A stretch of 20,652 nucleotides of DNA, from IMG/VR virus record IMGVR_UViG_3300038369_000535, positions 5,405 to 26,056 of that record. One strand, written 5' to 3'. This document shows, one piece after another, positions 2 to 15,701 of this stretch. The notes under the pieces are model-generated. The model did not search any database, was not told where the DNA came from, and saw only the letters and a program-made list of their open reading frames with translations. Position 1 is the first letter of the stretch; each line of letters opens with the position of its first letter. The position numbers were made by a program, and so were the translations under genes. The DNA is from a virus.

Positions 2-883
2 GCAATTCGTGTTCTTGTTGATTCCGCAGATGATGTAACTTATATTCCAAGTGCAGATATGCCTGCAACTGCAGAAGCACCTGTAAAAGAAGAAAAAGTT
101 GAAACTGAAGAAGAAGCATTAGATCGTATTAAAAGACGATTTGAAATACTTGATGAAATGACTGATGCTGTTGCTAATGGCACAGTTAGAGGACTAATTG
201 TAAGTGGCCCTCCAGGTGTTGGTAAGTCTTTTGGTGTTGAGAAAGTTCTTGACGAATATGATATGATGGCAAAACTGTCCAGCAAACCACCTAGGACTGA
301 AATTGTAAAAGGTTCTATGACACCAATTGGTTTGTTCCAAACTCTCTTTAACAACTCAAACGATGGAGACATCCTAGTGTTTGATGACTGTGACTCAGTG
401 TTGTTTGACGAAACATGTCTTAACATGTTGAAGGCTGTTTTAGACAGTGGTAAGAAAAGAACTATTTCTTGGAAGTCAGAATCTGCCGCTTTGCGTAGGG
501 AAGGTATTCCTGATAGGTTTGACTTTAAAGGTGGTTGTATCTTTATTACTAACGTTGACTTTGAAAGTGTACGTTCTAAAAAGATCAAAGATCACTTAGC
601 GGCACTTATGTCAAGATGTCATTACATTGATCTTGAATTGGGTGGAGTCGAAGATAGATTCCGTAGAATTAATCAAATCGTTCGAGATGGTATGCTTGAC
701 GAATATGATTTTGGTGAAGAAGGCAACAAGGAAGTTACAGACTTCATGCTTGAAAAAGCAAGCCGACTTCGTGAGATTTCATTGCGTATGGTACTGAAGG
801 TTGCGGACCTTAAACAAATGTCGCCAGACACTTGGAAGGAACTTGCTGAAAGTACTTGCATGAAAAGACTTGTAGACTGTTAG
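2..883 (+). CDS. AAA+ ATPase, 5'-truncated by the window edge
   Basis: The reading frame is open from base 2, and the first in-frame ATG (59) has no ribosome-binding site, so the true start probably lies before the window. Counting from that ATG, a Walker A motif GPPGVGKS is at residues 50-57, a Walker B-type segment DILVFDDCD at 104-112, and a sensor-1-like IFITNVD around 161-167, followed by a helical C-terminal lid-like region. This is a standard AAA+ core preceded by an acidic, lysine- and glutamate-rich linker. It does not look like the T4 gp44 clamp loader, because the sequence around Walker A and the C-terminus differ. Similar stand-alone AAA+ proteins of unknown role occur in many phages; substrate remodelling is the family expectation. 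The gene ends just before a strong terminator, so it is probably the last gene of its transcription unit. Confidence 0.8.
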   Translation, partial: AIRVLVDSADDVTYIPSADMPATAEAPVKEEKVETEEEALDRIKRRFEILDEMTDAVANGTVRGLIVSGPPGVGKSFGVEKVLDEYDMMAKLSSKPPRTEIVKGSMTPIGLFQTLFNNSNDGDILVFDDCDSVLFDETCLNMLKAVLDSGKKRTISWKSESAALRREGIPDRFDFKGGCIFITNVDFESVRSKKIKDHLAALMSRCHYIDLELGGVEDRFRRINQIVRDGMLDEYDFGEEGNKEVTDFMLEKASRLREISLRMVLKVADLKQMSPDTWKELAESTCMKRLVDC

Positions 884-911: not shown

Positions 912-942
912 CCTCTCGGAGCATAATGCTCCGGGAGGTTTT
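912..942 (+). terminator. Strong rho-independent terminator
   Basis: A 12-bp stem (912-923 pairing with 927-938, one G-T wobble) with a TAA loop is followed immediately by TTTTATAT. The stem is far more GC-rich than the surrounding DNA. It lies 28 bases after the stop of the AAA+ gene and before the TonB-dependent receptor gene, so it should end the upstream operon. Confidence 0.9.
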
Positions 943-957
943 ATATATGAGGTAAAA

Positions 958-2520
958 ATGAAAATAAAAATATTAATTGGGTTGGCATTTTGTTTTTTTG
1001 CATTTCCAGTGAATGCACAAGAAATTGAAGAAGTAATTGTTGTAGGTTCTACCATAGAAGAGTTTACAACAGATCATGTAGATGATGATTCGCTACTCGA
1101 AGTAATTACTCCTATGGCAGAATTCACGCAAGGTGGATTCGGTGGATACGTTGGATATACTGATAGAGGCACACAAAGTAAACACACGTCTGTGTATAGA
1201 AATGGTGTACCAGTAAATGATGCAGGTGCTGGTTGGTATGATTTTGCACATGATATTACTACAGGTAATGAAAGTGTTAAAATTGTTAGTGGTGCTAATA
1301 GTGTTTTATATGGCTCTGCAAGTATGGCTGGTACTATTTTTATCAATGATAAGTTTGATCAAAAGGCGTTTGCTTCTTATGGAGATAATTATGAAAAATT
1401 TTATGCTGGTTATAAAAATGTCAGTATTTCAAGATTTGACGTAAGCAATGGTAGTGTTAAAACAGATAACAATGAAATTGACAGTTATGTTAATACTACT
1501 GCTAGAGCAAAAGCAAAATTATTAAGTTTTGATGTTGTTGCAAATTACACTGACTATGATTATGATTATGATGGTTGTTACAATGCTAGTTGGACAAAAA
1601 CAGATGACTGTAAGCAAAAAGGTGATAAAGGTGGACTTAGTATTAGGAATGACTTTTTAACAATAGGTTACAATTACAATAACGCAACTTACTTTACTGA
1701 AGATGCAGAAACTAGCAAAGGCGAAGCAGAAAGATATTTTGTAGATGCTAGACAGGCAGTTATTGAAACAAAAGAAGTATCTACTATAGTTGGTGCATCC
1801 TTCACTCAAGAAATTTATAATGATAACGATAGAGAAGAGTATAGCATTTACTCTGTTCTTAACTATAAAGATCTTTTTGATATTGGTGTTAGAGCATCGG
1901 AAGACTATGTAGTAGGTAGACTTGGTGTAGCATATGAATTGTTTTTTGCTAATGCTGGTACTAGTTTTAGAAGTCCTACACTTAATGAAATCAACGGTGA
2001 TGCTTGGACATTGCCCAATCCAGACCTAGAACCAGAAGAAGCATTTGGTTTTGAAATTGGATATGGTTCTGTAAGTTATTTTAACTACGAATTCAGTGAA
2101 GGCATAGACTATGTTTATTCAGTAGGACAATATGTAAACACAGGCGAGTATGATACACAAGGTCTCAGATTTAACGACTCTTTTAGTGTACCTTGGGGTG
2201 GCCTTGGTGTTGACATTAGATATACAGATACTGATCAATTTAGAGTGCCCAGATGGTCAGGTAACTTAAATTATTTTGCAAGTGTAAAAGGTTGGGATAT
2301 TAATACGTCTTGGTCTTTTGTAAATGATAGAAAACCTAGTCCATATGATGGTGATACTTTAGAGGACTACGATACATTTAATATTTCTCTAAGCAGACGT
2401 ATTGGTAATGATATCACTATCAGTGGTTCTATTAGAGACTTGTTTGATAATAACTTTGAAATTGTGCCAGGATATAGAGCAGGTGGTAGAACTTTTGTGT
2501 TGACTTTAACTTGGCAATAA
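958..2520 (+). CDS. TonB-dependent outer-membrane receptor, compact
   Basis: Predicted outer-membrane receptor that would import a chelated metal, vitamin or similar ligand using TonB-ExbB-ExbD energy. Residues 1-20 form a clear Sec signal peptide (Lys-rich start, hydrophobic core, cleavage after VNA). The mature start EIEEVIVVGS resembles the TonB-box region of proteobacterial receptors. Residues about 55-132 read as a plug domain: a DRGTQ segment, then YRNGVPVND, then VKIVSGANSVLYGSASMAGTIFI, a very typical plug ending. The remaining ~385 residues should be the barrel, with receptor-type stretches FRSPTLNEIN and NPDLEPEEAFGFEIGY, and a C-terminal IRDLFDNNF...GGRTFVLTLTW strand. At 520 residues it is shorter than the usual 600-800. 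A GAGG ribosome site at 949-952 supports the start. No promoter is obvious between the preceding terminator and the start. Unusual cargo for a phage; the ligand cannot be read from sequence. Confidence 0.88.
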   Translation: MKIKILIGLAFCFFAFPVNAQEIEEVIVVGSTIEEFTTDHVDDDSLLEVITPMAEFTQGGFGGYVGYTDRGTQSKHTSVYRNGVPVNDAGAGWYDFAHDITTGNESVKIVSGANSVLYGSASMAGTIFINDKFDQKAFASYGDNYEKFYAGYKNVSISRFDVSNGSVKTDNNEIDSYVNTTARAKAKLLSFDVVANYTDYDYDYDGCYNASWTKTDDCKQKGDKGGLSIRNDFLTIGYNYNNATYFTEDAETSKGEAERYFVDARQAVIETKEVSTIVGASFTQEIYNDNDREEYSIYSVLNYKDLFDIGVRASEDYVVGRLGVAYELFFANAGTSFRSPTLNEINGDAWTLPNPDLEPEEAFGFEIGYGSVSYFNYEFSEGIDYVYSVGQYVNTGEYDTQGLRFNDSFSVPWGGLGVDIRYTDTDQFRVPRWSGNLNYFASVKGWDINTSWSFVNDRKPSPYDGDTLEDYDTFNISLSRRIGNDITISGSIRDLFDNNFEIVPGYRAGGRTFVLTLTWQ

Positions 2521-2534
2521 GATAAAATACTTAT

Positions 2535-4001
2535 ATGCAAACTGTAACTTTAGAAATACGTGACGAGGTTAACATCAGGTTTCAAGGACTTGATGTTAAA
2601 ACTCGTCGTAAAATTTCTGATGAAGTGAAATACTTTTTGCCGTATGCATATCATATGCCTGCTTTTAAGTTGGGCAGATGGGACGGCTGTATTAGATTTT
2701 GCGACATTGGTGGCCGTAGTTATATTCATTTGTTGGATAGACTACTGCCCATAGTTACAGGCGATGGTTATGAAGTAAATGTTGTTGATAACAGAAAGCA
2801 TTGGGATTTGAACTTTGAACATGTTGAAGCAACCAGTTATGATCATATATCTTGGCCAGCAAAACATCCTGCCGCTGGATTGCCTATTATCCTAAGAGAT
2901 TATCAAGTAGAGGTAATTAATAGATTTTTAGATAATCCACAATGTTTACAAGAGATTGCCACAGGTGCTGGTAAGACTCTTGTTACTGCTGTTTTAAGTC
3001 ACAAGTGTGAGAAGTTTGGTAGAACTATTGTAATTGTTCCAAACAAAGATTTAGTTGTACAAACAGAAAGAGACTATAAAAATTTAGGTCTTGATGTTGG
3101 TGTATTATATGGCGACAGAAAAGAGTACGACAAACATCACACAATATGCACTTGGCAAAGTTTAGCAGTTCTTCAAAAGAAAACCAAGGAAGGTTCTGCT
3201 GAAGTAGAGTTAGAAACATTTTTAAATAATGTTGTGTGCATTATGGTTGATGAGGTACACAAAGCAAAAGCAGATGTATTAAAAGATTTATTGAGTGGTA
3301 TGTTTAAAGATGTTCCAGTACGTTGGGGACTTACAGGAACTATACCAAAAGATGATTATGAAGCAGTTGGTTGTACCTGTGCATTAGGTCCTGTTGTTGG
3401 TAATCTAAGCAGTAAAGAATTACAAGACATGGGTGTACTTGCTGACTTGGATATAAGTGTATTGCAAATGCTAGATAGTCCTTTAGGGTTCAATGGATAT
3501 GCTCAAGAATTAAAATGGCTTACAACCGACGAGACTAGGTTAAAACACATATCTAAAATAATAAGTCAATTGAGTAACGATGGAAATACACTGGTGTTAA
3601 TAGACAGAATTAAGACTGGTGAGATATTAACAGAGATGAATTCAGACTGGGTGTTTGTTAGTGGTGGAATGAAAGTTAAAGACAGGCAAAAAGAATATGA
3701 AGAAATTTCTGACATGAACAACAAAGTCATAATTGCTACATATGGTGTTGCGGCAGTAGGAATTAATATTCCAAGAATATTTAATCTAGTAATGATAGAA
3801 CCAGGCAAAAGTTTTGTTAGAGTAATTCAAAGTATTGGTAGAGGCATTCGTAAAGCAGAAGATAAAGACTATGTGAATGTTGTAGATATCACAAGCGATT
3901 TAAAATACAGTAAGAGGCATCTAACAAAAAGAAAGGCTTTTTATAGAGAACAAAATTTTAGACATACTGTAACTAAGGTAAATTATAAAAATGAAATTTG
4001 A
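2535..4001 (+). CDS. uvsW: UvsW-like superfamily 2 DNA/RNA helicase
   Basis: ATP-dependent helicase of the T4 UvsW type, which remodels recombination intermediates and stalled forks and unwinds R-loops in T4. At 488 residues it is close to T4 UvsW. The first ~100 residues match the UvsW-type N-terminal domain position (basic, with a GRWDG turn at 47-51). Helicase motifs then follow in order: LRDYQ (120-124), Walker A ATGAGKT (142-148), DEVH (239-242), GLTGT (265-269), and motif VI QSIGRGIRK (432-440). No clear Shine-Dalgarno precedes the ATG at 2535, which lies 14 bases after the receptor stop codon, so translation may be coupled. The 3' end overlaps the next gene by 11 bases. Confidence 0.92.
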   Translation: MQTVTLEIRDEVNIRFQGLDVKTRRKISDEVKYFLPYAYHMPAFKLGRWDGCIRFCDIGGRSYIHLLDRLLPIVTGDGYEVNVVDNRKHWDLNFEHVEATSYDHISWPAKHPAAGLPIILRDYQVEVINRFLDNPQCLQEIATGAGKTLVTAVLSHKCEKFGRTIVIVPNKDLVVQTERDYKNLGLDVGVLYGDRKEYDKHHTICTWQSLAVLQKKTKEGSAEVELETFLNNVVCIMVDEVHKAKADVLKDLLSGMFKDVPVRWGLTGTIPKDDYEAVGCTCALGPVVGNLSSKELQDMGVLADLDISVLQMLDSPLGFNGYAQELKWLTTDETRLKHISKIISQLSNDGNTLVLIDRIKTGEILTEMNSDWVFVSGGMKVKDRQKEYEEISDMNNKVIIATYGVAAVGINIPRIFNLVMIEPGKSFVRVIQSIGRGIRKAEDKDYVNVVDITSDLKYSKRHLTKRKAFYREQNFRHTVTKVNYKNEI

Positions 4002-4718: not shown

Positions 4719-5216
4719 ATGAAAATATTAACCGTAGAAAATCGTCCATATGAACTGGACACAGTACCAGATGAAATAGACGATCTACGTTATTGTGCTC
4801 TTGACGCAAGTGATAGAGAATGTATAGATTTTTACTTTTTACCTTTAATTTTTTTAGAGAGTTTTTATGCACCAGCAATTTGTTTAGACATAGGAGGCAG
4901 AAAAATACAAATGCCTATGGACTGGAGCATTTTGTTGTGTGATGATGATTATGGTGGCATAGAGTGTTTGCCTTTAGCAAGTTTAAACAACAGAGGTTTT
5001 AGAGCATTAGCAATGAATCCTTTAAGTAACAGAATTCCTGACAGTTATGAAATAACTATCACAAACATTTTTCAAGATGTAAAATGGTATTTTCCTAAAT
5101 TAAAGCATGGACATTTGTTGGCAGTACCCATTGAGGATAAGAAAGAGCCAAGGTGTGTTTACTTTGTAAAAGAGTTAAATAAAGTGCAAGACATAGAAAT
5201 GGGTGATTTAATATGA
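4719..5216 (+). CDS. Conserved-looking hypothetical protein, 165 aa
   Basis: No family is recognised. The product is acidic, without signal peptide, and alternates short hydrophobic strands with charged turns. It has a central MPMDWSILLCDDDYGG segment and ends in a probable beta-rich domain (KHGHLLAVPIED). A well-spaced AGGAGA site precedes the ATG at 4719. The gene overlaps the start of metK by 4 bases (ATGA), so its translation is probably coupled to SAM synthetase and it may travel with the SAM cassette, although nothing in the sequence shows an enzymatic role. Confidence 0.75.
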   Translation: MKILTVENRPYELDTVPDEIDDLRYCALDASDRECIDFYFLPLIFLESFYAPAICLDIGGRKIQMPMDWSILLCDDDYGGIECLPLASLNNRGFRALAMNPLSNRIPDSYEITITNIFQDVKWYFPKLKHGHLLAVPIEDKKEPRCVYFVKELNKVQDIEMGDLI

Positions 5217-6313
5217 TGTATGAGTTTACCAGCGAAAGTGTAAGCGAAGGGCATCCAGATAAAATTGCTGATTTGATATCAGATAGAATAGCAGACTTTT
5301 TAATAGGTGGTAAAAGTTCTAATAGAGCGGCAATAGAAACACTCGTTACAACAAACATGGTTACAATAGCAGGTGAATTTAGAAGTTTTTTTTACAACAA
5401 AGAAGAAATTGATAAAATTGTTAGAGATACTGTAAAAGAAATTGGATATGAGCAAGAAGGATTTCATTGGGAAAAATTAAAAATATATAATGAGTTGCAT
5501 GGACAAAGTCCTGATATTGCTTTAGGAACAGACAAATTTGGTGCAGGTGATCAGGGATTGATGTTTGGGTATGCTTGTGAAGAAACTCCTACATACATGC
5601 CTAGTGCAATTTATTACAGTCATGAGATACTAAAATTTTTAGCAGAGCAAAGAAGAAAGGATATAAATTGGTTAGGACCAGATAGTAAGGCTCAGGTTAC
5701 TATGGAGTATGCTGATATAAACACTCCATTTAGAATAAGTAAAGTAGTATGCAGTAGTCAGCACACTGAAGACTATCCATTAGAGCATACACGAGACGCA
5801 CTAAGACATTTAGTAGGTCATGCACTCGACGGGTGCAATGCTCCTTACGATGAAAACACAGAATTTTTAATTAACCCTACAGGTAGATTTGTAGTTGGAG
5901 GACCAGATGGAGATACAGGACTTACTGGACGAAAAATTATTGTTGATACTTATGGTGGGTATGCTCCACATGGTGGCGGTGCTTTTTCAGGTAAGGATTG
6001 CACTAAAGTCGATAGATCGGCGGCATATATGGCTAGATATTTGGCAAAGAACATTGTAGCAAGTGGTAAGGCAAAAAATTGTACAGTACAATTAAGTTAT
6101 GCAATTGGCATGGCAGAGCCAACTAGTTTATATGTTTATGCTGATGGTGAAGTAAGAAATGACATAGCAAATTGGATAAGAGAAAATGTTGACTTAAGAC
6201 CTGTTGCAATCATAAATAGATTTGATCTGTTTAATGTAGAATTATCAAAGACAACAAACTATGGACACTTTGGTAAAGAAGGATTGCCCTGGGAAGAAAT
6301 TAATTTATATTAA
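5213..6313 (+). CDS. metK: S-adenosylmethionine synthetase
   Basis: Makes S-adenosylmethionine from methionine and ATP, releasing phosphate and pyrophosphate. The 366-residue protein keeps the family hallmarks in order: FTSESVSEGHPDKIAD near the N-terminus (active-site His and Asp), GAGDQGLMFGYA, the DSKAQVT lysine motif, NPTGRFVVGGPDGDTGLTGRK, and the phosphate-binding GGGAFSGKD with KVDRSAAY after it. It ends in a YGHFGKEGLPWE segment that aligns with the bacterial C-terminus. E. coli MetK is 384 residues, so this copy is nearly full length with shortened loops. Two adjacent ATGs occur (5213 and 5216); 5213 overlaps the previous stop as ATGATG. It appears catalytically intact, and it starts a tight cassette with apt and a nucleosidase-like gene. 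Confidence 0.96.
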   Translation: MMYEFTSESVSEGHPDKIADLISDRIADFLIGGKSSNRAAIETLVTTNMVTIAGEFRSFFYNKEEIDKIVRDTVKEIGYEQEGFHWEKLKIYNELHGQSPDIALGTDKFGAGDQGLMFGYACEETPTYMPSAIYYSHEILKFLAEQRRKDINWLGPDSKAQVTMEYADINTPFRISKVVCSSQHTEDYPLEHTRDALRHLVGHALDGCNAPYDENTEFLINPTGRFVVGGPDGDTGLTGRKIIVDTYGGYAPHGGGAFSGKDCTKVDRSAAYMARYLAKNIVASGKAKNCTVQLSYAIGMAEPTSLYVYADGEVRNDIANWIRENVDLRPVAIINRFDLFNVELSKTTNYGHFGKEGLPWEEINLY

Positions 6314-6314
6314 A

Positions 6315-6854
6315 ATGGAATTTGACTTTAAAAAACACATTCGAACAATAGTAGACTATCCTATAAAAGGTGTTCACTTCAGAGATATTACTAGTTTACT
6401 TGAGGAGCCTAAAGCATTTAAGGAATGTATTACAAGACTGTCTGTGGAGGCGGCAAAGTTTGATGCTAATTGTATTGTTGGTATAGAAAGTAGAGGATTT
6501 GTATTTGGTGCTCCAATTGCAACTAAATTTGAATTACCATTGATACTTGCAAGAAAACCAAACAAACTTCCAAACAAAACAGTAAGTAAACACTTCCAAT
6601 TAGAATATGGTGAAACAGAATTACATATACAAGAAATATCACCAATAGAAGGTAAAGTATGTATAGTTGATGATTTAGTTGCCACAGGAGGTACAGCACT
6701 TGCCTGTGCTGATTTAATACATGAATATTGGAATATAGATAAAGCAAATATATTAATACTTGCAGTAATAGATTTACCAGGACTGAATGGTAGTAATCTA
6801 ATTAAAGAACAAGGGTATTATGTAAAAACTCTTTTAGAGTATGAAGGAGCATAA
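6315..6854 (+). CDS. apt: Adenine phosphoribosyltransferase
   Basis: Converts adenine and PRPP to AMP and pyrophosphate in purine salvage. The 179-residue length matches bacterial Apt (E. coli 183). FRDIT at 22-26 and VGIESRGFVFG (55-65) are typical of Apt, and the PRPP-binding loop VDDLVATGGTA is at 118-128. The start at 6315 is chosen because the protein then begins like other Apt proteins; an in-frame ATG at 6261 would overlap metK by 53 bases. It begins 1 base after the metK stop and its last base is the first base of the next start (TAATG), so it is probably translated by coupling. Its substrate adenine is the product of the nucleosidase-like protein encoded next. Confidence 0.95.
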   Translation: MEFDFKKHIRTIVDYPIKGVHFRDITSLLEEPKAFKECITRLSVEAAKFDANCIVGIESRGFVFGAPIATKFELPLILARKPNKLPNKTVSKHFQLEYGETELHIQEISPIEGKVCIVDDLVATGGTALACADLIHEYWNIDKANILILAVIDLPGLNGSNLIKEQGYYVKTLLEYEGA

Positions 6855-7381
6855 TGAAAGAGATAATTTTAATTGCATTAGAACACGAAGCACCTAATAT
6901 GGCAAAATGGGATAATGTATTTTTCACTGGCGTAGGAAAAATCAATGCCGCACTAACAGCCGCTAAAGTTATACAAAAGTTTAAACCAAATAGAATATGG
7001 AATTTTGGAACAGCAGGTGGAATCAAACTAGAGCAAGGTTGCTACGAAATGGTAAACTTTGTAGAACGTGACAAAGGTAAATGTCCTGAGTCCATAGAAG
7101 TAATGCTACCAAAAGATCCTGTTTCTTTAAGTTTTGGTGTAGGATATACATGCAGTACAGGAGATAATTTTGTAACAGATCCTAATTTAGAAATACCTGC
7201 ACATGTTGTTGACATGGAGGCATTTGCTATTGCAAAAGCCTGTTTAAATGAACATGTAGACTTTAAGTGTTATAAGTATGTAAGTGATAGTGCTGATGAC
7301 ACCGCAGATACAAGTTGGTTAGACAATGTGCAAAAGGGCGAAGAACATTTTATAAACATTTACAAAAAAGAGGTAAAATGA
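6854..7381 (+). CDS. MTA/SAH nucleosidase-like protein (purine nucleoside phosphorylase fold), short
   Basis: Resembles bacterial MTA/SAH nucleosidase (Pfs), which cleaves S-adenosylhomocysteine or methylthioadenosine to adenine plus a ribosyl thiol. Visible signatures are IALEHEA (Glu10/Glu12, position of the general acid-region Glu), TGVGKINAALTA (25-36), FGTAGG (51-56), STGDNFV (101-107), VDMEAFAIA (119-127, ribose-binding Glu122), and YVSDSADD (142-149, catalytic Asp position 145). All key positions of the E. coli enzyme appear present, but at 175 residues it is well short of the usual ~230, mainly through a missing middle segment. A broader nucleosidase role cannot be excluded. It overlaps apt by 1 base and the cupin gene by 4 (ATGA). 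Confidence 0.85.
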   Translation: MKEIILIALEHEAPNMAKWDNVFFTGVGKINAALTAAKVIQKFKPNRIWNFGTAGGIKLEQGCYEMVNFVERDKGKCPESIEVMLPKDPVSLSFGVGYTCSTGDNFVTDPNLEIPAHVVDMEAFAIAKACLNEHVDFKCYKYVSDSADDTADTSWLDNVQKGEEHFINIYKKEVK

Positions 7382-9182: not shown

Positions 9183-9857
9183 ATGAAAGTAAACTTAATT
9201 AGTCACAGTCAATCCGATGGTAGTTACATTATAGATAGTGCTAGTGCAACAGAACTTGTTGCCTTTTGTGCTAGAGTAAGTAACCCTAACAATCAGATGA
9301 ACAGCGAAACCAGTGAAAAGTTAATCAAGTATTTGATGAAACACAAACATTGGTCTCCTTTAGAAATGGTATCAGTTTGTTTAGAAATTGAAACAACAAG
9401 AGATATTGCAAGACAAATTCTTCGGCACAGGAGTTTTAGTTTTCAAGAGTTCAGTCAAAGATATGCTGACCCAACAAAAGATTTAGATTTTGAAATCAGA
9501 GAAGCAAGATTACAAGATCCAAAAAACAGGCAAAACAGTATTCCAACTGACGACTTCTCATTAAATCATCAATGGGAAGAAATGCAGAAAGATATCATTA
9601 GAGCATCAAGGCATGCATACACTTGGGCAATAGAAAAAGGTATTGCTAAGGAACAAGCCAGAGCAGTATTGCCTGAGGGTAATACTGTAAGCAGAATGTA
9701 TGTAAATGGTACACTTAGAAGTTGGGTACATTACATAGAACTACGTGGTGCTAATGGTACACAATTAGAACATATTAAAATTGCCAATGCAGTTGCAGAC
9801 GTGATATCAAGAGTATTTCCACTAGCAGAAGACTTTAAAAACAAAGAAATACAATAA
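9183..9857 (+). CDS. thyX: Flavin-dependent thymidylate synthase
   Basis: Makes dTMP from dUMP using methylene-tetrahydrofolate, FAD and NADPH. The signature RHRX7S is exact: RHR at 81-83 and Ser91 within RHRSFSFQEFSQRY. HWSPLEM at 56-62 lies where the family has its conserved His-x-Ser/Thr-Pro segment, and RAVLPEGNTVSRMYVNGTLRSW holds the usual C-terminal block. The 224-residue length is normal. A GCAGGA-like ribosome site precedes the ATG. It starts 2 bases after the zinc-finger gene. Its folate substrate is the product of GlyA, encoded 5 kb downstream. Confidence 0.95.
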   Translation: MKVNLISHSQSDGSYIIDSASATELVAFCARVSNPNNQMNSETSEKLIKYLMKHKHWSPLEMVSVCLEIETTRDIARQILRHRSFSFQEFSQRYADPTKDLDFEIREARLQDPKNRQNSIPTDDFSLNHQWEEMQKDIIRASRHAYTWAIEKGIAKEQARAVLPEGNTVSRMYVNGTLRSWVHYIELRGANGTQLEHIKIANAVADVISRVFPLAEDFKNKEIQ

Positions 9858-10208: not shown

Positions 10209-10221
10209 GGAGTAATTTATG
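10207..10221 (+). repeat. Ribosome-site repeat, copy 2
   Basis: Identical 15-base copy of the ribosome site at 9939-9953. It overlaps the stop codon of the 85-aa protein gene and gives the lipoprotein gene the same translation start signal as the promoter-proximal gene. Confidence 0.85.
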
Positions 10222-11703
10222 CATAATTTACCTGCAATACTTTGTAGTATTTTTTTAATTGTAGGTTGCGGAGGCGGAGGAGGTTCTGAACCAGTTACAC
10301 CAGAGCCTACACCACCACCTACCCCACCTACCCCACCGCCCACAGCAACTTTTTCTGATGATCCAATTATTTTGTCAGATATTCAAAGTTACTATGTAGA
10401 CCAATGCTTGATTCCAAACATTGGTTCTGTTATTCCAGTAGATATCAATGGAGACCAAGATGACGATTTTATTATTCATTATTGGTGTCCTCAAGAAGAG
10501 TTTGGTAATTCTGTTAGAACAGATACACCAAATGCTATTGTTGCCTATGTAAGCACAGGAGGTGTTTACGATATAGACAATTACAATGTGTTTGGAGAAA
10601 GTTATGTATCGCTTACCGGTGCTTCAAGAAAAGTAGCAGTAGCAGATATAAATGGAGATGGCAAGGAAGACATTGCATTTGCTATGAACAACGAAGATGG
10701 TAGAGCAACTTGGGAACCTGAAGATCAACTTAGTAATGGTGCTATACCAGTTGTATTATTAAGCACTGAAACTGGTTACGAAATTTTCCAACTTGGTGTT
10801 GCTGACTGGGGACATGAAGTACAAATTACCACAACAGGTGATGTGTTGTTTACAGGATACAATGTAGGTACTCAAGCATTTAATTACAACGGTAGTGCCT
10901 GGGCAAATGTCACCGATTACTATCCTGAACTAAGTCCAAAGTCACATTTAGTTGGACCCAATGTGTCATACATTGCAAATGAAGTAACCAATGCTGGCGA
11001 GGTCGGTGTAGAGATTTTACAACGATCTGGAGGCGAATGGGTATCCTTTGCTGATTACTTTATAAAAGAAGAGTTTAAGGTACAGTTGGAAGGTTGGAAC
11101 AATACGGGTTCGGGTAATTATTCTGATATAGGTGTTTTTAAATTTAACAATGTAAACTACATTGGTGGCAACATTGACAAAATGTGTTTGATACAAATGA
11201 ATGATAAAACATTGTTAGTACCTAAAATACAATCTATGGCACTAATAGATGGCACAGAACCTCAGGAAGGACTGTCATATCAAGAAGTTGATACTACACC
11301 TGTTAATCTGTTTATCTTCTTAGACTTAGTTGAAAATGAACTACAGTTATTTGAATCTCCCATAGAAGAAGAAATGATTAACTATAATTTCAACGAGTTT
11401 TCATGTGAGGATATTACTAGCAACGGCAGAGGAGATATAGTTGCTTCAGTATTCAGTCAAAATTGGGACGAAGATACACCTGAGAGAAGAGGTGTACCAA
11501 TAGTTTACATAAATGATGGTTCAGATACACTTGTTACAGTTGACACTAGTGAGTGGCCTACATTCTCTGAGGATTTACAAGACTCATTAGGGTTTATGAA
11601 TGATATCAATAATGATGGTTTAGTGGACCTAATTATGCATGGAATTACCACAGAATACAACGGAAATGTGGAAATATACCTAGCAAATAGCAATATTGAC
11701 TAA
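10219..11703 (+). CDS. Large lipoprotein with FG-GAP/VCBS-type calcium motifs
   Basis: Predicted exported lipoprotein of 494 residues. A short signal ends in a lipobox IVGC, so Cys17 would be lipidated; Gly18 rather than Asp follows, compatible with outer-membrane sorting. A run of glycines and a Pro/Thr-rich spacer (about 24-43) link it to a large beta-rich domain. Calcium-loop motifs VDINGDQDDD (74-83) and VADINGDGKEDIAF (141-154), plus NDINNDGLVDL near the C-terminus, are typical of FG-GAP or VCBS beta-propeller repeats. Only three are clear. Such proteins are normal for marine bacterial surfaces but unusual as phage genes. It shares a promoter with the 85-aa protein. Function unknown; adhesion, receptor blocking or ligand binding are possible. 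Confidence 0.9.
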   Translation: MHNLPAILCSIFLIVGCGGGGGSEPVTPEPTPPPTPPTPPPTATFSDDPIILSDIQSYYVDQCLIPNIGSVIPVDINGDQDDDFIIHYWCPQEEFGNSVRTDTPNAIVAYVSTGGVYDIDNYNVFGESYVSLTGASRKVAVADINGDGKEDIAFAMNNEDGRATWEPEDQLSNGAIPVVLLSTETGYEIFQLGVADWGHEVQITTTGDVLFTGYNVGTQAFNYNGSAWANVTDYYPELSPKSHLVGPNVSYIANEVTNAGEVGVEILQRSGGEWVSFADYFIKEEFKVQLEGWNNTGSGNYSDIGVFKFNNVNYIGGNIDKMCLIQMNDKTLLVPKIQSMALIDGTEPQEGLSYQEVDTTPVNLFIFLDLVENELQLFESPIEEEMINYNFNEFSCEDITSNGRGDIVASVFSQNWDEDTPERRGVPIVYINDGSDTLVTVDTSEWPTFSEDLQDSLGFMNDINNDGLVDLIMHGITTEYNGNVEIYLANSNID

Positions 11704-14065: not shown

Positions 14066-14548
14066 ATGTTACATCCTCTAGAACAGCAATACATTGATCA
14101 CCTCGCATTAGGCAATGAAAATGAGCCTGGAATGTTACTATTGCCAGAACATCATGTAATCCATACCACTGTAAAAAATGTTTTAGAAAACAAACATGAA
14201 GACTTAAATGATATGTCCTTGGTATATTGGATTTGGTTGGATAAAGATAACAATGATTTTTTATACATTGGCACAACAGACAAAAATGTAAAAGTTAGAT
14301 TAACAACACATTATGCAAAAAATGATGGTGTGTTACAAGAGGACGGAAGACGTATTAAGTTGGAATCAGTTGGCGAATTTAATGATACTGGAAGTTGGAA
14401 AGACTGGAGAAGTATAAAACATAAATGGCCAAATTTTGATTATTACAATGCAGATGTAACTCTCTTCAAAGTAAGAAACGCCGAAACAAATGCTATACAT
14501 CTTTACAAGCCAAAGGCCAACAAAGAATATAGTAAAGATTATCTATAG
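14066..14548 (+). CDS. Possible GIY-YIG nuclease-like protein, diverged
   Basis: Residues about 52-85 read LVYWIWL...NDFLYIGTTDKNVKVRLTTHYA, where a GIY-YIG domain has a GIY strand, then YIG(Q/T)T and an Arg about ten residues later. The C-terminal part NAETNAIHLYKPKANKE resembles the closing helix with the catalytic Glu and a later Asn. The first motif is changed from GIY to VYW, so activity is uncertain. The family includes homing and repair nucleases. The N-terminal 50 residues are not recognised. ATG 14066 is the only sensible start; it lies one base after the preceding stop. Confidence 0.65.
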   Translation: MLHPLEQQYIDHLALGNENEPGMLLLPEHHVIHTTVKNVLENKHEDLNDMSLVYWIWLDKDNNDFLYIGTTDKNVKVRLTTHYAKNDGVLQEDGRRIKLESVGEFNDTGSWKDWRSIKHKWPNFDYYNADVTLFKVRNAETNAIHLYKPKANKEYSKDYL

Positions 14549-14561: not shown

Positions 14562-15701
14562 ATGTACAAACAAATCAGCGATATTCTCAATCGAGAACAA
14601 ACTAGACAAGACAACACAATAGAATTAATTGCCAGTGAAAACTATACTAGTCAGGCAATTATGGATTTGTGTGGTTCTATTTTTACAAACAAATATGCCG
14701 AAGGTTACCCAGGTAAAAGATATTACAATGGTTGTCAAAACTATGACGAAGTAGAATCATTAGCAATTAAAACTGCAATTAAATTGTTTAACAGCAACTA
14801 TGCAAACGTGCAACCACATTGTGGTGCTAATGCAAACACAGCCGTTTACCAAGCATTTTTGCAACCAGGTGATAAAATACTAGGTATGGATTTAGCAAGT
14901 GGCGGACATTTAAGTCATGGCTCACCACCAAACATATCAGGTAAAATATATGAAGCACATCATTATGGTGTAAACAATGAAGGCTTTTTGGATTATGATG
15001 AAATTGAAAAACAAGCAAAAAGTGTTTTACCTCAAATGATTGTTGCTGGTGCAAGTGCATACCCAAGACAGATTGAATGGAAGAGATTTAGACAAATTGC
15101 AGATGAAGTTGGTGCAAAACTTTTAATTGATATGGCACACTATTCAGGAATTATTGCAGGTAAGGCATACACAAACCCACTTCCTTTTGCTGATGTTGTT
15201 ACAAGCACAACACACAAAACTCTTAGAGGTCCAAGAGGAGGTATAATTTTATGGAACTCTCCAGAATATACTAGAAGAATCAATAGTGCAATTTTTCCTG
15301 GTACACAAGGTGGACCTTTAATGAACATTATTGCCGCAAAAGCACAATGCTTCTTAGAAGCAAGTGAGATGGAGTTTAGTGTTTATGCACATGATGTTGT
15401 TGCTAATGCTAGAGCATTTGCAGAACAACTTATGGTAAATGGTTTTGAATGCTTGACAGGTGGAACAGATTCGCATATAATACTTATAGATTTAACAAAT
15501 AAAAACATCAGTGGACGTGAAGCCGCCGACCTATTAGAAGAAAATGGTATTACTGTGAACAAAAATGGTATCCCAAATGATCCAAGAGGGTTTACTGAAA
15601 CTTCTGGTATTAGAGTAGGAACAGCGGCAGAAACAACTAAAGGACACGATGCAGAATGGTTTAGGAACCTAGCAGATAAAATTGCTGAAATTATTGTATG
15701 A
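14562..15701 (+). CDS. glyA: Serine hydroxymethyltransferase
   Basis: PLP enzyme that converts serine and tetrahydrofolate to glycine and 5,10-methylene-tetrahydrofolate. The 379-residue protein starts like the family (NREQTRQDNTIELIASENY). It keeps the region around GKRYYNGCQNYDEVE, the pyridine-binding LLIDMAHYSG, the PLP-lysine motif STTHKTLRGPRGG with Lys219, and C-terminal SGIRVGTAAET. E. coli GlyA is 417 residues; the shortening is spread over the chain. The start at 14562 is preferred over ATG 14490 because the extra residues would overlap the upstream gene and do not resemble GlyA. It overlaps the MazG-like gene by 4 bases. It supplies the cofactor ThyX needs. Confidence 0.95.
   Translation: MYKQISDILNREQTRQDNTIELIASENYTSQAIMDLCGSIFTNKYAEGYPGKRYYNGCQNYDEVESLAIKTAIKLFNSNYANVQPHCGANANTAVYQAFLQPGDKILGMDLASGGHLSHGSPPNISGKIYEAHHYGVNNEGFLDYDEIEKQAKSVLPQMIVAGASAYPRQIEWKRFRQIADEVGAKLLIDMAHYSGIIAGKAYTNPLPFADVVTSTTHKTLRGPRGGIILWNSPEYTRRINSAIFPGTQGGPLMNIIAAKAQCFLEASEMEFSVYAHDVVANARAFAEQLMVNGFECLTGGTDSHIILIDLTNKNISGREAADLLEENGITVNKNGIPNDPRGFTETSGIRVGTAAETTKGHDAEWFRNLADKIAEIIV

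Follow-up and report, generated by a model that had tools for sequence, protein, structure and literature searches.

Genes for TonB-dependent outer-membrane receptors in phages are already on record. The marine megaphage Mar_Mega_1 encodes a SusC-type TonB-dependent receptor that was proposed to raise nutrient uptake (PMC9723777), and the annotation of the pelagiphage Polarivirus skadi lists a TonB-dependent receptor gene with tail genes on one side and capsid genes on the other, which the authors of that study connected with adsorption (PMC10504331). Among cellular receptors the reference is the B12 transporter BtuB of E. coli (TIGR01779; PDB 1nqh, 2gsk), in which an aspartate cage holds two calcium ions and raises the affinity for cobalamin about 1000-fold (PMC7360065). 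The phage receptor described here shares with BtuB a signal peptide, a TonB box, a plug, 22 barrel strands, a profile alignment over the full length and the residues at BtuB positions 193, 195, 229, 230 and 241, and BtuB is its top fold match. In contrast to BtuB, it is carried by phages, is only about 20% identical and about 90 residues shorter, has Ser in place of D179 and an invariant Cys pair in loop L3 (Cys207/Cys218), and scores far under the BtuB model cut-off. The Mar_Mega_1 receptor differs in being SusC-type rather than BtuB-like and in belonging to a single megaphage group (the SusC-type viral fold match, of 805 aa, is 12% identical to ours), whereas the receptor of Polarivirus skadi, also a marine-phage TonB-dependent receptor, is set apart by its gene position, as far as can be judged from its description. 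Nearest in our tree, with weak support, are marine BtuB-like receptors of SAR11 and gammaproteobacterial MAGs (L103, L106 and L107), which are cellular, about 650 aa long and 22-28% identical to the phage receptor, the SAR11 ones sharing its S-E-D-Y-D-D residues at the calcium site. The new element is thus a BtuB-like family at a fixed locus of a T4-like lineage, of which we found no earlier description in the literature searched, preprints and most subscription journals lying outside the search.

The window, that is, the whole stretch of DNA analysed (20,652 nucleotides), covers positions 5405-26056 of a 26 kb virus record (IMGVR_UViG_3300038369_000535). The other genes of this record are T4-like: upstream of the window it encodes a single-strand-binding protein and UvsX, and these are followed by uvsW, ligase, primase and replicative helicase. 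The features referred to below are, in window coordinates:

59..883, + strand: upstream flank, AAA+ ATPase gene (phrog_1250), 77-88% identical in relatives
912..938, + strand: terminator-like hairpin in the gap that separates the AAA+ gene from the receptor, present whether the site is filled or empty
958..2520, + strand: receptor coding sequence, 520 aa (open reading frame, Pfam Plug, BtuB models, about 100 viral relatives, 22-strand plugged-barrel model)
958..1017, + strand: signal peptide, residues 1-20, by sequence reading; the N-termini of relatives are also hydrophobic
1024..1050, + strand: TonB box IEEVIVVGS, residues 23-31, kept in nearly all of 45 relatives
1054..1350, + strand: plug domain, residues 33-131 (Pfam Plug and model)
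1366..2514, + strand: 22-stranded barrel, residues 137-519 (AlphaFold2 model, BtuB the top fold match)
1453..1482, + strand: extracellular loop L2, residues 166-175, with E173 and D175 corresponding to BtuB D193 and D195 (alignment and control)
1555..1617, + strand: residues 200-220, comprising loop L3 with the adjoining end of strand 5 and start of strand 6 (alignment and control)
2535..4001, + strand: downstream flank, uvsW helicase gene, 74-84% identical in relatives

A first scan of IMG/VR returned 35 related loci at 35-48% identity, and a scan with an alignment returned 218 encoding stretches, of which the best 80 were retained. Among the 101 loci examined, the AAA+ gene lies directly upstream in 81 and uvsW directly downstream in 82, the remaining loci being mostly contig ends or other phage lineages; some of the contigs counted may be copies of one virus. 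Chance can be ruled out, because the receptor is conserved in about 100 viral contigs, and at the level of sequence and predicted structure we regard a phage-encoded TonB-dependent receptor as established. The gene was not found in any of 50,697 deposited phage genome records, which gave only partial matches (at most 42% of the query, at about 25-34% identity), those that are annotated being labelled BtuB or B12 receptor. In a scan of the genomes of 84,980 species, the cellular relatives found were 22-28% identical.

When the AAA+ protein was used as the query, the locus proved to be polymorphic: the receptor follows the AAA+ gene on 36 contigs, while on 22 others AAA+ and uvsW are direct neighbours, about 100-115 bases apart. 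The AAA+ and uvsW proteins of these 22 contigs are about 74-83% identical to those of the window, and since the two genes are adjacent in such related phages, this fixed site carries the receptor as cargo. In the empty sites the hairpin is followed by a promoter of the TTGACA...TATAAT type and then by uvsW; in the filled sites the retained hairpin is followed by the receptor and then by uvsW, with a TTGACA-type promoter in front of the receptor in one case (L015). This arrangement of hairpin and promoter, at filled and empty sites alike, makes it likely that the receptor would be transcribed together with the replication genes. Control by a cobalamin riboswitch was considered and rejected, as none was found on the seven loci searched, which counts against the B12 reading discussed below. 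More distant relatives (L260, L262, L263 and L265-L267) have other, mostly unidentified genes between AAA+ and uvsW, in one case (L262) a radical SAM gene, and the site therefore takes up different cargo.

The sequence-only reading had described a compact TonB-dependent receptor in a phage, lying between an AAA+ gene and uvsW, with a signal peptide, a TonB-box-like mature start and plug motifs and with a length shorter than usual, and each of these points holds up. The gene starts with ATG, preceded by a GAGGT ribosome-binding site. Its product begins MKIKILIGLAFCFFAFPVNA, followed by QEIEEVIVVGS, which reads as a Sec-like signal peptide with a basic n-region, a hydrophobic core and an AxA-type end (VNA before QE), and then the TonB box; in nearly all of the 45 aligned relatives the mature N-terminus has a box of the form (I/V)EE(I/V)xV. 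The Pfam Plug model (PF07715) scores 36.5 bits, above its cut-off of 23.9. Members of the phage family are about 490-570 aa long, as against about 580-760 aa in the cellular receptors compared. Outer-membrane barrels have an aromatic residue at the C-terminus; here the sequence ends TLTWQ, with Trp in the penultimate position, and the ends of relatives vary (W or Y, YR or YK). Many receptor copies, among them L042, L044, L047, L053, L059, L080, L082 and L091, share an extended N-terminus in which the motif KNFHxNFxPxY precedes the hydrophobic part of the signal peptide. In G402 (a 250 kb contig) and G408 the receptor is longer, with an open frame of 675-700 aa that was matched as two overlapping pieces, which suggests a segment inserted near the middle.

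An AlphaFold2 model built from 45 sequences (pLDDT 80.2, pTM 0.81) has exactly 22 barrel strands and a plug, so that the plugged barrel proposed from the sequence is also what is predicted; a first model, from 20 sequences, had a pLDDT of 70, and its best PDB match was likewise BtuB. On this model, the compactness of the receptor is a matter of short loops, with no strands missing: it is predicted to be compact, not truncated. When the model was searched against the PDB, the top 15 chains were all B12 transporters (Z 30.4-35.9), E. coli BtuB scoring 33.1-35.9 and the Bacteroides BtuB types 30.4-31.5; the first receptors of other kinds were PirA (Z 30.4) and ChuA (Z 29.7), and, BtuB itself being a short receptor, size alone may push it up this ranking. 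Among viral structures the phage SusC-type receptor mentioned above was the sole significant match.

Likeness to BtuB is also seen in the sequence. The best NCBIfam model is that of the vitamin B12 receptor (TIGR01779, E 1.8e-17), although its equivalog cut-off is missed (63.2 bits against 599.7). Against the PDB the family profile finds BtuB at 3e-20 and the next receptor at 6e-5; it aligns with E. coli BtuB over its whole length (455 columns, E=2e-17) and with FhuA and CirA over 27 and 112 columns, respectively, in plug regions only. The calcium ligands of BtuB, which we take to be residues 179, 193, 195, 229, 230 and 241, can be followed in the alignment. Positions 193, 195, 229, 230 and 241 correspond to phage E173 (present in 45/45 copies), D175 (45/45), Y204 (42/45), D205 (45/45) and D217 (37/45), the last three falling within residues 200-220 opposite BtuB Y229, D230 and D241, and D179 is replaced by Ser; five of the six positions examined, four acidic and one Tyr, are thus kept, the alignment being least certain at 179 and 241, given the divergence. 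At the five positions classical BtuBs show D, D, F/Y, D and mostly D/E, the S-E-D-Y-D-D of the window receptor recurs in SAR11 BtuB-like copies, and E-D-Y-D-D was not seen in six E. coli receptors other than BtuB that served as an alignment control.

Taken over sequence, profile and fold, the BtuB-likeness of the phage receptor is strong. Where the earlier reading had left the class undecided among BtuB-like, siderophore and other receptors, these three lines narrow it to a receptor that appears BtuB-like, not siderophore-like, albeit one below the equivalog cut-off. We favour, with a probability of roughly 55%, a phage-encoded compact BtuB-like transporter, which a T4-like lineage carries as cargo in the midst of its replication genes, with import of a cobalamin-type compound as its best-supported function. 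The receptor would be made during infection, its signal peptide would direct its export, and it would fold in the outer membrane of the host. There, to judge from the conserved residues, its extracellular loops and the plug apices would bind a calcium-ordered ligand of the corrinoid type, B12 or a relative, and the TonB-ExbB-ExbD complex of the host would pull on the TonB box, so that the ligand enters the periplasm and the vitamin supply of the infected cell is raised by the phage.

One may also consider that the protein is a TonB-dependent importer of some other ligand (a siderophore, heme, a metal chelate or a small molecule) and that its resemblance to BtuB reflects shared ancestry and small size. 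Identity to BtuB of only about 20%, the missed TIGR01779 membership cut-off and the fact that the neighbouring marine BtuB-like receptors in the tree have putative ligands at most all leave room for this explanation. We nevertheless consider it unlikely, since the residues of the BtuB calcium site are kept here and are absent from siderophore receptors, which in addition match over the plug only.

The pattern of change in the gene bears both on import and on a different role altogether. Close pairs give a dN/dS of about 0.1-0.2, i.e. purifying selection. Receptor divergence correlates with that of nearby genes at a Spearman coefficient of 0.39-0.54, whereas nearby genes correlate among themselves at 0.82-0.86. 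The mismatch runs in both directions: one phage (L078) has flanks 94-97% identical to those of three others (L011, L043 and L046) and receptors only 57-60% identical, and another pair (L015 and L016) has receptors 92% identical, with 79% for AAA+ and 83% for uvsW. The receptor rate is therefore not clock-like, and the simplest reading is that receptor alleles are swapped between phages by recombination. Within the barrel, the external loops are better conserved than the remainder (a difference as large as this arises in only 5 of 388 circular shifts), conservation in the phage family being 0.64 for the extracellular half and 0.48 for the periplasmic half; for L2 and L3 it is 0.77, against 0.38 for the same columns in classical BtuBs.

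Two roles had been put forward from the sequence, a boost to import and the masking or replacement of a surface receptor. In the second, the phage protein would displace, mimic or occupy host receptor machinery at the expense of other phages or bacteriocins. TonB-dependent receptors, BtuB included, do serve as phage receptors (PMC8624392), phages are known to block such receptors (as in the FhuA-Llp structure), and an allele exchanged between phages would not be out of place under superinfection exclusion. However, a shared ligand site is expected to yield a conserved outer face and a variable decoy the opposite, and the extracellular loops to which phages bind are, together with the calcium site, the most conserved parts of the barrel, not the most variable. 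Nor would a mask require that the TonB box or the calcium site be kept. Exclusion thus seems to us rather improbable; the conserved outer face and the dN/dS speak for import, powered by TonB, of a single conserved ligand and against a decoy, and that ligand, judging by the residues retained, is probably a corrinoid.

As to origin, a tree with 67 cellular receptors sets the phage copies apart in a single clade, with support 100 and a stem of 1.18. The placement in a receptor tree that had been proposed as a check gave a tentative position: in a 33-row tree the nearest neighbours of the phage clade, weakly supported (80/68), are the BtuB-like receptors from marine SAR11 and gammaproteobacterial genomes, and the clade lies together with all BtuB-like rows on one side of a branch with a support of 72/22; joining the phage clade to classical BtuB alone is not rejected (p-AU 0.154). 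The best cellular match in 369 genomes of the class to which L103 belongs scores 67 bits, against 575-806 bits for full-length phage members in one open frame, and the gene has therefore long been resident in phages. Presence in only part of the lineage would by itself allow a neutral passenger, but with locus and phage flanks constant on about 80 contigs, dN/dS as low as given above, no close cellular homologue (22-28% identity at best) and no sign of a chimera, we reject a chimeric assembly or bacterial insert, which had been named as what could overturn the assignment, and regard any explanation of this kind, the neutral passenger included, as extremely improbable.

Other genes of these phages bear on what an imported corrinoid might serve. 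The ribonucleotide reductases found in these phages are class I (NrdA/NrdE types), none of them B12-dependent, and import for a B12-dependent phage ribonucleotide reductase was rejected on that account. On four receptor contigs there are genes for radical SAM proteins whose B12-binding domain scores over the cut-off; a specific link between receptor and such enzymes is unsupported, since two empty-site contigs likewise carry B12-binding radical SAM genes. Phage proteins combining the two domains were seen in L191, L192 and L194 (about 620 aa), L100:11557-13005 and L101:5377-6840, the B12-binding match being over the cut-off in L191, L192 and L193 and weak in L100 and L101. In these last two, which belong to a second phage group, the radical SAM gene directly follows the receptor, and a phrog_459 gene and a CobS-like gene also lie downstream. 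The radical SAM and CobS-like neighbours are weak support for a B12 ligand, because CobS-like genes are common in T4-like phages. The AAA+ gene upstream of the receptor was itself considered as a CobS and rejected, having no CobS match.

The window itself holds, at 5213-7381, 9183-9857 and 14562-15701 (+ strand), genes for SAM synthetase, an APRT-like phosphoribosyltransferase, a phosphorylase-superfamily nucleosidase, ThyX and SHMT. These one-carbon and SAM genes would fit the support of a metabolism in which B12 acts through methionine synthase. A wider reading, which we offer tentatively and would not call probable, is that several uncultured T4-like phage lineages have their own compact BtuB-type cobalamin importer, expressed with the replication genes and exchanged as alleles at one fixed locus, which would feed B12-dependent steps, namely the methionine/SAM cycle of the host and the B12-binding radical SAM enzymes of the phages. 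As part of this, the SAM synthetase, nucleosidase, phosphoribosyltransferase and SHMT of the window phage might reinforce the host cycle.

Seawater contains little vitamin B12, and among marine bacteria many are unable to make it. Viral auxiliary genes as known so far mostly alter reactions within the cell, whereas this receptor, if the favoured reading is true, would alter uptake from the surroundings, and a widespread viral B12 importer would tie phage infection to the exchange of vitamins among microbes. The locus also raises a question that concerns one gene only, namely whether a virus adds a working TonB-dependent transporter to the outer membrane of its host. Filled and empty sites at one locus allow phages that have the receptor to be compared with natural counterparts that lack it, and a predicted complete 22-strand receptor in about 500 residues should be of use to structural work.

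Some other genes near the receptor deserve mention. At 10219-11703 (+ strand) the window encodes a 494-aa protein with a lipobox (LIVGC) and FG-GAP repeats, by its sequence probably a surface or periplasmic lipoprotein. Its relatives, 24-37% identical and fast-diverging, lie downstream of the receptor in L002, L003, L005, L010-L012 and L033. A beta-propeller lipoprotein near a BtuB-like receptor is reminiscent of Bacteroides BtuG, but a pattern scan and a PDB sequence search for a BtuG-like partner found no relative. Upstream of the window, a 130-aa ORF (L037:4779-5171) with no PHROG match looks, by eye, like a holo-ACP synthase (MIYGIGTDIINLERS...). Within the window, adjoining the SHMT gene, positions 14066-14548 (+ strand) encode a GIY-YIG domain protein of 160 aa.
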